Shown in pieces: positions 18,414-58,685 of a stretch of DNA of 64,000 nt; position 1 is the first letter of the stretch; the number at the start of each line of letters is the position of its first letter. A program made the translations under genes and the position numbers. The notes under the pieces were generated by a model. The model searched no databases. It had not been told where the DNA came from and saw nothing but the letters and a program-made list of their open reading frames with translations. The DNA lies in assembly GCA_021732215.1 (NCBI GenBank), contig JAKFVL010000006.1, positions 62,001-126,000 on the forward strand, given 5' to 3'. The DNA comes from Hyphomicrobiales bacterium (GTDB lineage Bacteria; Pseudomonadota; Alphaproteobacteria; Rhizobiales; Xanthobacteraceae).

Positions 18414-18911
18414 ATGTCGCCGTTCTGGCGAGGCGTTGCGATATTTCTGCTTGGCGGCGTGTTCGGCACAGGCCTGGGCTTCGCCGCCGGGATCATCGGT
18501 TTCCCGTATATCTTTCCGCCGCCTCCCGCCGCTGAGGTCCTCTCGGATGCCGATCGCGCGCGGCTGGTCGCGACCGGTTCCTTCATCCATGCCAATCCCG
18601 CCGATCCGGTGCACTGGGGCAAGGGCAAGGTCAGCGTCTACGCGCGCGCGGTGTTTCTCGAAGGCGATTTCAAGGTCGGACCGGGACCGAAATATCATGT
18701 GCTGCTCGTGCCCAAGGCCGGCGTGCGCAGCGAAAGCGACGTGCAACGCGCCACCTGGGTCGATCTCGGCCGCCTGCGCGCGTTCGAGGGCAGCCAGCGC
18801 TATCCGATTCCAGCCGGTGTCAATCTCGACGACTACAAGAGCGTGGTGATCTGGTGCGAGCGGTTCGGTGTGCTGATCTCGCCGGCCGATCTGATGCGCG
18901 GCAAGTCTTGA
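18414..18911 (+). CDS. DM13-domain exported protein
   Basis: 165 aa from the ATG at 18414, with AAGGACGCGG as the ribosome-binding region. An N-terminal hydrophobic segment (ATIFLLGGVFGTGLGFAAG-like, residues 8-30) looks like a signal anchor. The rest is a DM13 domain: GSFIHANPADPVHWGKGKVSVY and the typical VVIWCERFGVLISPADL end with its conserved Cys. DM13 domains are proposed to act in redox or electron transfer. The TGA stop lies inside the first unit of a 15-bp tandem repeat (18905-19009). Confidence 0.82.
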   Translation: MSPFWRGVAIFLLGGVFGTGLGFAAGIIGFPYIFPPPPAAEVLSDADRARLVATGSFIHANPADPVHWGKGKVSVYARAVFLEGDFKVGPGPKYHVLLVPKAGVRSESDVQRATWVDLGRLRAFEGSQRYPIPAGVNLDDYKSVVIWCERFGVLISPADLMRGKS

Positions 18912-19009
18912 AGCGGCACGTCTTGAAGCGGCACGTCTTGAAGCGGCAAGTCTTGAAGCGAGATGGCTTGAGGCAAGCCGTGTTGAGGCAGGACGTGTTG
19001 AGGAAGGAC
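18905..19009 (+). repeat. 15-bp tandem repeat, seven units
   Basis: Units starting GTCTTG, GGCTTG or GTGTTG occur at 18905, 18920, 18935, 18950, 18965, 18980 and 18995, exactly 15 bp apart. The first four are nearly identical (GTCTTGAAGCGGCAC); the last three diverge. The array begins in the stop codon of the DM13 gene. In one plus-strand frame it reads VLKRH VLKRH VLKRQ VLKRD GLRQA VLRQD VLRKD, but no start or ribosome site supports translation. Confidence 0.9.
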
Positions 19010-19047
19010 TCGCGTGTCGAGACGAGATTGCGAAACGGCTTGCCGCG

Positions 19048-19371
19048 CTATTCGTCTTCGTTGAACTTGTTGCCGAGCAGCGTGGTCAACGCATCGACCA
19101 CCTCCTGAGCCTGCGTGCCGGTGGCGGAGACGGTGATCGAGGTGCCGATGCCGGCGGCCAGCATCATCAGTCCCATGATCGAGGTGCCGCCGACGGTCTC
19201 GCTGTTGCGCGTCACCTTCACGTCTGCATCGAACTTCTCGACCATCTGCACGAACTTGGCAGACGCCCGCGCATGCAGACCGCGCTTGTTGATGATGGGA
19301 ATCTCCCGCGTCACCGCGCTGGCAGCCGACGACGAAGCGCTGGTGCCTGGTTTCCGAAGTTCGTCACTCAT
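19048..19371 (-). CDS. ptsH: HPr-family phosphocarrier protein
   Basis: 107 aa. The phosphorylatable His is in NKRGLHARASAKF (residue 32) and the Ser region target of HPr kinase is GGTSIMGLMMLAA. The family is about 85-90 aa; this one has an N-terminal extension (MSDELRKPGTSASSSAASAV) whose first codons come from a repeat element. The start codon (19369-19371) and its GAGAG site lie in the loop of a 16-bp hairpin. With EIIA and HPr kinase it makes the regulatory, transport-independent PTS of alphaproteobacteria; enzyme I is not in the window. Confidence 0.94.
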   Translation of the reverse strand: MSDELRKPGTSASSSAASAVTREIPIINKRGLHARASAKFVQMVEKFDADVKVTRNSETVGGTSIMGLMMLAAGIGTSITVSATGTQAQEVVDALTTLLGNKFNEDE

Positions 19372-19507
19372 CGCGGCAATCTCTCAAACGAACTTCGGAA
19401 ACCGAAAGGTACTAGCAAATGATTGATGCTGGTGCCGCTTTCGATCTGAAGTTCCTGATGACGACCATGTAGCAACGATGCAGGAACTTCAGATCGGCGG
19501 TGCTGGC
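19340..19507 (-). repeat. Two-hairpin composite repeat family F, copy 1 (contains ptsH start)
   Basis: Hairpin F1 has perfect 16-bp arms at 19349-19364 and 19388-19403 with a 23-nt loop; hairpin F2 has perfect 15-bp arms at 19443-19457 and 19481-19495. On the minus strand the order is F2, a spacer containing ATCAT...TTGCTAGT, then F1. The same order and spacer recur on the plus strand at 58453-58617. It lies between the EIIA stop and the ptsH start and includes the ptsH initiation codon. Confidence 0.85.
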
Positions 19508-19521
19508 GTCCGGCGCATCGC

Positions 19522-19923
19522 TCATTTGCCGGCGAGAACCCGGCTGGCGATGGTGACGTATTTGCGTCCGGCTTCCTGGGCGGCGGCGATGGCTTCGGGA
19601 AGCGGGCGCTCCTCGCGCACCTTGGCGAGCTTCACCAGCATCGGCAGGTTGATGCCGGCGAGCACCTCCACCTTGGGACGGCTCATGCACGAGATCGCGA
19701 GGTTCGACGGCGTGCCGCCGAACATGTCGGTGAGAATGGCGACGCCATCTCCACTGTCGACGCGATTCACGGCCTCGATGATGTCGCTCCGACAGAGGTC
19801 GGCATCATCTTCCGCACCGATCGTGATCGCTTCGATTTGCTTTTGCGGGCCCATGACGTGTTCGAGCGCTGCCCTGAACTCATCGGCAAGGCGCCCGTGG
19901 GTCACCAGAACGAGACCAATCAT
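19522..19923 (-). CDS. PTS EIIA component, mannose family
   Basis: 133 aa from the ATG at 19923. The phosphorylated His is residue 9 (MIGLVLVTHG), and LTDMFGGTPSNLAIS is the typical EIIA-Man loop. No IIB, IIC or IID genes are near, so it is regulatory rather than a sugar permease part. It lies between the HPr kinase and HPr genes, the order conserved in Rhizobiales, and probably passes phosphate from HPr to regulatory targets. Confidence 0.93.
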   Translation of the reverse strand: MIGLVLVTHGRLADEFRAALEHVMGPQKQIEAITIGAEDDADLCRSDIIEAVNRVDSGDGVAILTDMFGGTPSNLAISCMSRPKVEVLAGINLPMLVKLAKVREERPLPEAIAAAQEAGRKYVTIASRVLAGK

Positions 19924-20060
19924 CGAAAACTCCTCGCGGGTGCTTTTGGTGCACCGCACGAACGGGCCACATGTTGACCATCCGCAGCCCCGTTGCAAGG
20001 GGGCATCTTGGCGCTTTCCGGGCCAAAAGGCCCCGGAGGGGGTGGGTAGCGCCCGGCCGA

Positions 20061-58452: not shown

Positions 58453-58617
58453 TGGTGCCGCCGATCTGAAGTTCCTGCACCATCGACGCGAATTCAGAAA
58501 CAGGAACTTGAGATCGAAAGCGGCACCAGAATCATAGGCTTGCTAGTGCCGTTTAGTTTTCGAAGTTTGTGTGAGTGGCTGCCTCAATGATTCACAAACT
58601 TCGAAAACTCGGCACTA
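58453..58617 (+). repeat. Two-hairpin composite repeat family F, copy 2 (between ffs and dnaX)
   Basis: F2 arms at 58463-58477 and 58501-58515 (one mismatch), spacer ATCATAGGCTTGCTAGT, then F1 arms at 58556-58571 and 58593-58608 (perfect 16 bp, 21-nt loop). Order and spacer are those of the minus-strand copy at 19340-19507. The ATG of a 32-codon ORF lies in the F1 loop (58587-58589). Confidence 0.85.
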
Positions 58618-58685
58618 GATCTGCTTCGGGCCGCCGAACCGTGCCCGCTTCAAAACACATCAGATTCGGACCGCTTGATGGCTGA
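58587..58685 (+). other. Short upstream ORF overlapping the dnaX start
   Basis: ATG at 58587, TGA at 58683-58685; the stop overlaps the dnaX ATG at 58678. It starts MIHKLRKLGTRS, resembling the HPr N-terminus MSDELRKPGTS encoded by the other family F copy. A GTGAG lies upstream of the ATG. Translation is not shown; the position would permit coupling to dnaX. Confidence 0.35.

Follow-up and report, generated by a model that had tools for sequence, protein, structure and literature searches.

Rickettsia palindromic elements (RPE) are small palindromic repeats that lie within protein genes and add peptide sequence to their products (PMC10969869, PMC2229807), and intragenic palindromes are also described among the REPs (PMC3733652). 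GTAG/CGTC REPs, present in Bradyrhizobium and Rhodopseudomonas among others, are palindromes that often form dimers and sometimes sit at gene N-termini; their description gives stems of 5-13 bp, loops of 2-20 nt, an unpaired GTAG/CGTC tag and, for GTAG, a link to RAYT (PMC3733652). In enterobacteria, the MITE-like RU/ERIC elements have become part of annotated proteins, in wbbJ near the N-terminus, in a paper that contains neither 'start codon' nor 'initiation' (PMC2759123). For the QMITEs, no effect on the 5' end of any gene with a known function is apparent (PMC5896051). The short ORFs of class 1 integrons (ORF-11 of attI1, and those of attC) pass ribosomes on to the following start through termination-reinitiation, opening stem-loops (PMC8876359).

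Here we describe a two-hairpin element from a window of 64,000 nucleotides (the whole stretch of DNA analyzed) of a Hyphomicrobiales bacterium of the Xanthobacteraceae. As far as the available text of these papers goes, RPE, REP, RU/ERIC, QMITE and integron ORF-11 each share a part with it. Like RPE, it is a small palindromic repeat within protein genes that adds peptide; RPE, however, are read through in frame as one ORF, whereas in the present case the native frame reaches a stop codon within the repeat and an internal start would take over. The likeness to REPs lies in palindromes of the same bacterial group, often dimeric and in some cases at gene N-termini, but the present stems of ~25 bp (51 pairs in two hairpins) and loops of ~23 nt fall outside the REP sizes, its ends are CTAG-like, paired and covarying rather than an unpaired GTAG/CGTC, and no RAYT link was found, the one RAYT-like gene of the genome being flanked by another palindrome. 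RU/ERIC fusions arise by the element's own ORF, in contrast to an element that would supply a start to the interrupted gene. Integron ORF-11 works alike, being a short ORF on a mobile element with termination-reinitiation and stem-loop opening, but it serves cassettes that have no ribosome-binding site, needs the integrase and, in the text available, has no described role in tagging interrupted host genes. Outward start codons in the loops of both hairpins are not described in the text available for any of these elements, and among the papers listed by full-text searches, with most subscription journals outside their coverage, none reports a repeat that supplies starts in this manner. The element appears to be a small palindromic mobile element, a variant unlike those described.

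An inserted element at the 5' end of ptsH

A preliminary description of this DNA had placed the ptsH initiation codon and its GAGAG site in a loop of 23 nt flanked by perfect arms of 16 bp, and re-measurement gave the same geometry. On the minus strand, the 5' arm of this hairpin (hairpin A; 19388-19403) and its 3' arm (19349-19364) pair at 16 of 16 positions around a loop of 23 nt (19365-19387), within which lie GAGAG (complement 19385-19381) and the ATG (19369-19371). The gene read from this ATG (19048-19371, minus strand) encodes an HPr of 107 aa and begins ATG AGT GAC GAA CTT CGG AAA CCA GGC ACC AGC..., the 3' arm encoding the ELRKP of an N-terminal tag. The HPr domain profile begins after the tag, at residue 20, and solved HPr structures align to this protein from residue 18 or later. 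No second ptsH gene was found in the window's genome.

Hairpin A forms one half of a 167-bp element on the minus strand (19340-19506; the repeat itself stands as first described, its end having been given one position too far, at 19507), located inside the 5' coding end of ptsH in the sense order hairpin B, spacer, hairpin A. The 5' or outer arm of hairpin B occupies 19481-19495 and its 3' or inner arm 19443-19457. The second copy that had been claimed is real; it lies on the plus strand at 58454-58620, after the small SRP RNA and before dnaX, and is not in frame with the next gene. An Rfam search of the window matched neither of these two copies; the small SRP RNA was the sole feature to reach the gathering score.

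Missing from the preliminary description was a surviving native ptsH start upstream of the element. This ATG (complement 19525-19523) overlaps the TGA of manX, the upstream EIIA-type gene (19522-19998, minus strand, as listed from its most upstream start codon), as ATGA (complement 19525-19522); MSDAPDAST follows and then the element. It opens an orphan leader ORF of 37 codons (19412-19525, minus strand) that ends at a TGA at 19414-19412. In the congener G001 the gene order is the same, the element is absent and the ptsH ATG overlaps the manX stop (GGCAAATGACG..., MTPPPDATSSDTGAVTREIP). Because the site is empty in G001 and the native ATGA is kept upstream in the window, we take the element to have been inserted into the first codons of ptsH. 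The gene differs from that of G001 by 19 synonymous and 2 nonsynonymous changes in 88 codons, and part of this divergence must be older than the insertion. Across 41 HPr loci, an in-frame start of NTGA form lies upstream of the domain in 39, the overlap of these starts with a manX stop not being verified locus by locus. The repeat-derived tag is found in the window's ptsH only (1 of 41); an ortholog with the same N-terminus and no flanking repeat, which had been named as evidence against the first reading, is thus not among the 40 others.

Folding of the leader, as had been proposed, yielded a structure of -46.2 kcal/mol (z -2.69; 2 of 200 shuffles were equally good) that contains the hairpin A stem. 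The GAGAG of this copy is a weak Shine-Dalgarno (SD) sequence, at -2.9 kcal/mol vs a random mean of -2.6. Beyond the other end of the gene, TTGAAGCGGCACGTC-like units form a degenerate tandem at 18900-19015, in the interval from the stop of a plus-strand ORF (18911) to the ptsH 3' end.

Copies, stems and ends of the element

A genome-wide search, also suggested in the preliminary description, located the element far beyond chance: at least 30 distinct places in the window's genome (4.2 Mb, 32 contigs; E <= 1.1e-7) and at least 29 in G001 (E <= 1e-8), both counts being lower bounds, with 40 of ~75 candidates scored. Element matches occurred in 34 of 149 sampled family genomes and in 19 of 47 genera. 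Of 391 family genomes, 57 gave a match to the loop-and-arm pattern, some of the matches being unrelated histidine-kinase motifs, and a reversed control pattern gave one match in each of 4 genomes. Matches of the form MSHELRTP (L205, L210, L264, L265, L268), which we take to be a histidine-kinase motif, were set aside by eye as not being tags. By a home-made gene caller, none of 100 entries, 12 of which repeat a listed copy, places a copy inside a gene body.

The aligned copies consist of two related hairpin modules in inverted order, each with a stem of ~25 bp that includes GAAGTTC/GAACTTC, ends of CTAGTRCC/GGYACTAG and a loop of ~23 nt. In 60 of the 78 listed copies, 38 of 51 stem pairs have changed on both sides and 95.9% of cells are still paired; with the partners slid by 1-3 columns as a control, these values were 10-15 pairs and 26-43%. 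At the outermost positions, bases covary with their partner in the same hairpin (0 of 2000 permutations were as high), and no covariation was seen between them and the opposite element end in inverted order. Because the pairs covary strongly, the stems appear to matter to the element itself. Such covariation would be produced either by selection on structure or by template-switch correction of palindromes. In a test for terminal repeats of the MITE kind, CTAGTRCC...GGYACTAG was found at both element ends, each end pairing inside its own hairpin. Of a target-site duplication there is a weak signal: the two 4-mers outside the element are identical a little more often than in shuffled pairs (P 0.03), with CCAG/CCAG at both ptsH and hmgA. 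A plasmid search gave no match to the element, and one with UbiA returned distant homologs only.

Tagged genes and empty sites

Read outward from the hairpin A loop, long ORFs with MxxELRK(P/Q/R)GT(S/R/...) lead into known proteins. Those tagged in the window's genome are RNase J, a Suv3-like helicase, an IclR-family regulator, a histidine kinase, 3-hydroxyisobutyryl-CoA hydrolase, SdhA, SdhC, a DUF2125 protein and a TetR regulator; three of these, SdhA, SdhC and the helicase, carry the tag in G001 as well, where HmgA is also tagged. One hundred stretches from family genomes add tagged LepA (G248, G265, G082), UbiA and DciA, and KdtA carries the tag in G019 and a flavin-monooxygenase-like protein in G137. 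In the opposite orientation, the hairpin B loop gives the MVQELQIGGTS start of YdjC-like and HD-domain proteins; the upstream sequences ATGAACTCGCG (MNS) and ATGACC (MT) resemble cut-off native starts, which for all genes outside ptsH, ubiA and lepA were chosen by eye, with no empty-site ortholog as a guide. Profiles begin soon after the tag, residue 13 of SdhC corresponding to profile position 2, 25 of SdhA to 1, 15 of HmgA to 3, 12 of the YdjC-like protein to 1, 17 of DciA to 2, 15 of LepA to 2 and 16 of RNase J to 2 (a fragment, with 397.5 bits vs a cut-off of 400). A kinase-like ORF of G113 (L240), similar to the tagged kinase of the window's genome, was left uncounted: no hairpin arm precedes it and the fragment has no Pfam match. 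The empty ptsH site of the congener and the like events in unrelated genes bear out two earlier proposals, that the HPr N-terminus MSDELRKPGT is derived from the repeat and that a repeat was recruited as a gene start.

Filled and empty sites were also compared at ubiA and lepA. Within one genus, 15 of 107 genomes have a tagged UbiA, with matches from residue 1. In a comparison of 30 ubiA loci, 14 are tagged and 16 start with M(S/N)D(T/A)SARVADS at an ATGA, and the downstream sequence is the same. In the interrupted gene the native ATG opens an ORF of 7 codons. The scatter of the tagged alleles over the gene tree makes it likely that they recombined or that the tag was gained and lost repeatedly. 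In G085, ubiA has kept the start and the tag with a truncated stem; folding of this locus shows a shortened hairpin, not the loss of it. In another genus, 2 of 26 matching genomes have a tagged LepA; there the near relative G196 has CCCATGACAACCAGCCCTATC and G248 has CCCATGACAACCAGC-element-ATGCCTATT; in G248 an ATG exactly at the element junction could serve as the start instead.

Leader frames and loop starts

In the interrupted genes, a leader ORF from the cut-off native start passes through hairpin B and the 5' arm of hairpin A and stops near the loop AUG. There are 23 such cases, which are loci and not independent genes. The leader stops inside the element in 21 of them (L158 is open and L121 unscored), and in 17 the end of the stop lies within -16 to +8 nt of the loop AUG: at +4 (AUGA) in five (RNase J, both helicases, the kinase and SdhC of G001), at +1 (UGAUG) in two LepA, at +8 in the IclR, DUF2125 and DciA genes, and at -1 to -16 in seven more. 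A coupled stop is absent from ptsH (-40), hmgA (-101) and two ubiA (-121 and -122), and two further cases are unscored. L158 (G070) alone among the 23 has a native frame without a stop across the entire element and on into the gene (527 aa), and a full fusion and a restart are thus both possible there.

Compared by frame, the native frame stops within -16 to +9 nt of the loop ATG in 13 of 15 copies vs 4 of 15 for the other open frame (P 0.001), and at independent sites in 10 of 12 vs 4 of 12 (P 0.018); all other frames do so in 4 of 30. In 12 of 15 in-gene copies and in 16 of 28 other copies of both congeners, the usual native frame (f1) stays open to 20 nt or less from the loop ATG; it is mostly closed in other genera (open in 5 of 19). 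The leader-stop positions have the geometry expected of termination-reinitiation (translational coupling). At ptsH, where the leader ends 8 nt before the hairpin A arm and 40 nt before the loop ATG, this coupling appears to have been lost; because the leader stops so early, HPr is probably started at the loop ATG independently of it, or by weak reinitiation.

For several tagged genes, the loop ATG has no near substitute. Downstream of it, an in-frame ATG, GTG or TTG first occurs at codon 41 in SdhA, 37 in KdtA, 27 in the IclR regulator and 27 in RNase J, there inside the conserved GEIGMN; leaving aside a GTG that adjoins the loop ATG in each, it occurs at codon 35 in the YdjC-like gene, and the HD gene has no further in-frame start up to codon 44. 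Across the genus, 36 of 52 copies have an ATG or GTG in the exit frame of loop A, and 26 of 43 have one in that of loop B (3 and 12 copies, respectively, were dropped for want of a readable arm), vs 3-5 in either other frame, and wherever there is an exit-frame loop start that frame is open to the element edge. In other genera, the loop B start is in the exit frame in 11 of 19 copies vs 1 and 1 in the other frames; the pattern is weaker there because for loop A frame 1 (16 of 26) nearly equals frame 0 (18 of 26). The exit frame is also the frame of the called neighboring gene in 12 of 19 cases in the window's genome (P 0.007), and in 22 of 47 when all are pooled (P 0.04); an excess over one third is absent from G001 (6 of 15) and other genera (4 of 13). 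We do not use this excess as a general proof, its significance being confined to the window's genome. The 12 include cases that are not rescues: GlmS (L013), although in frame with a loop ATG, must start downstream at its own MCGIIGILG, since the enzyme requires an N-terminal cysteine, and L006 has no loop ATG. The SD strength of the loops is modest, with 21 of 44 at or below -4.4 kcal/mol vs 20% at random, and folding of 8 cases gave models with the SD region 44-82% and the AUG 22-89% unpaired.

Together, these observations make it likely that a dispersed two-hairpin element supplies interrupted genes with a new start and an N-terminal tag, by restart after a leader ORF. The sites, frames, missing near starts, stems and stops are read from sequence, and from them we infer use of the start, reinitiation and mobility. 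The element would be non-autonomous, each of its loops tending to carry an outward-facing start codon with a frame open to the element edge. Insertion within the first codons of a gene would cut off the native start and provide a new start and tag in its place, and the orientation would set the tag, MxxELRKPGTS with hairpin A toward the gene and MVQELQIGGTS with hairpin B. In most interrupted genes examined the native start would still drive translation of the leader ORF across hairpin B and the 5' arm of hairpin A, and the ribosome that translates it would open the hairpin, stop at or near the loop AUG (AUGA, UGAUG) and restart there. A broader reading, which we hold more tentatively and at somewhat less than even odds, is that this is a class of mobile element that rescues broken genes at translation, with outward starts in both hairpins and, in either orientation, a tagged working protein.

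An ordinary palindromic repeat in the 5' UTR, with HPr started at the downstream GTG (MTREIPIINKRG; 19312-19314, minus strand, residue 20) and the in-frame loop ATG a coincidence, would be an unlikely alternative. This GTG leaves a complete HPr domain, 6 of the 40 other HPr loci, including G001, have a start codon at the same place, the in-frame loop ATG of GlmS is just such a coincidence, and the home-made gene caller, used for context only, picked the GTG for ptsH. In the text available, many REPs at ORF N-termini are also considered possibly extragenic (PMC3733652). An in-frame start codon further downstream, a start there having been named at the outset as evidence against the loop start, is present in the sequence; however, it lies 11 aa before GLHARA, whereas all 40 other loci, including each of the six, have a start at least 15 aa before it, the longest NTGA-type starts of the 41 loci lying 15-37 aa before and the loop start 30. 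Moreover, no purine-rich stretch precedes the GTG, as judged by eye, and coincidence fails for SdhA, KdtA and the YdjC-like and HD genes, which lack a near alternative start, and for ubiA, whose native ATG leads into the 7-codon ORF.

The stems invite two regulatory explanations. That hairpin A is a switch hiding or showing the HPr start agrees with the strong stem around the SD and AUG of ptsH and with stems conserved through compensatory change; but the stem is also conserved in copies that start no gene, and because of this it would serve the element and not ptsH. The start and tag of the G085 ubiA persist with a truncated stem, and in the folded models SD and AUG are partly unpaired and no alternative fold appears, all of which makes such a switch very improbable. 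It seems hardly probable at all that the copies are a structured regulatory RNA or leader positively selected before many genes, the start being incidental: the strong stem covariation and the lack of copies flagged inside gene bodies would fit, but the ptsH insertion is absent in the congener, the tagged genes have no evident common function, the filled ubiA alleles are scattered on their tree and neither copy in the window matches an Rfam family.

If the restart reading holds, the element would be a source of new protein N-termini. An insertion near the beginning of a gene would normally be expected to inactivate it; this one seems to carry an initiation site with it, and that would account for the presence of the repeat in rnj, sdhA, sdhC, lepA and ubiA. 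Start-codon annotation in the Xanthobacteraceae calls for corresponding caution, and the natural pairs with and without the element offer material for testing reinitiation.

Other palindromes were met in the course of this analysis. The genome of the window has one RAYT-like transposase gene (L031:1254-2284, contig C13) with GTAGGATGGGTAGAGCGCAGCGAAACC palindromes alongside, a REP family distinct from the element; a RAYT origin of the element was considered and set aside, as the palindromes flanking this gene are of another kind and its 3.3-kb locus contains no element arm. Sibling hairpins with similar CTAGTG/CACTAG-type ends and other stems (e.g. AACATTCGC) occur at L139, L163, L165 and L202, which suggests a wider superfamily of such hairpin modules. 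In several copies (L005, L007, L135, L136, L160, L161 and others, by home-made gene calls), the upstream gene ends 3 nt inside the element, and the TAG of the element's CTAG end is perhaps used as the stop codon of these genes.
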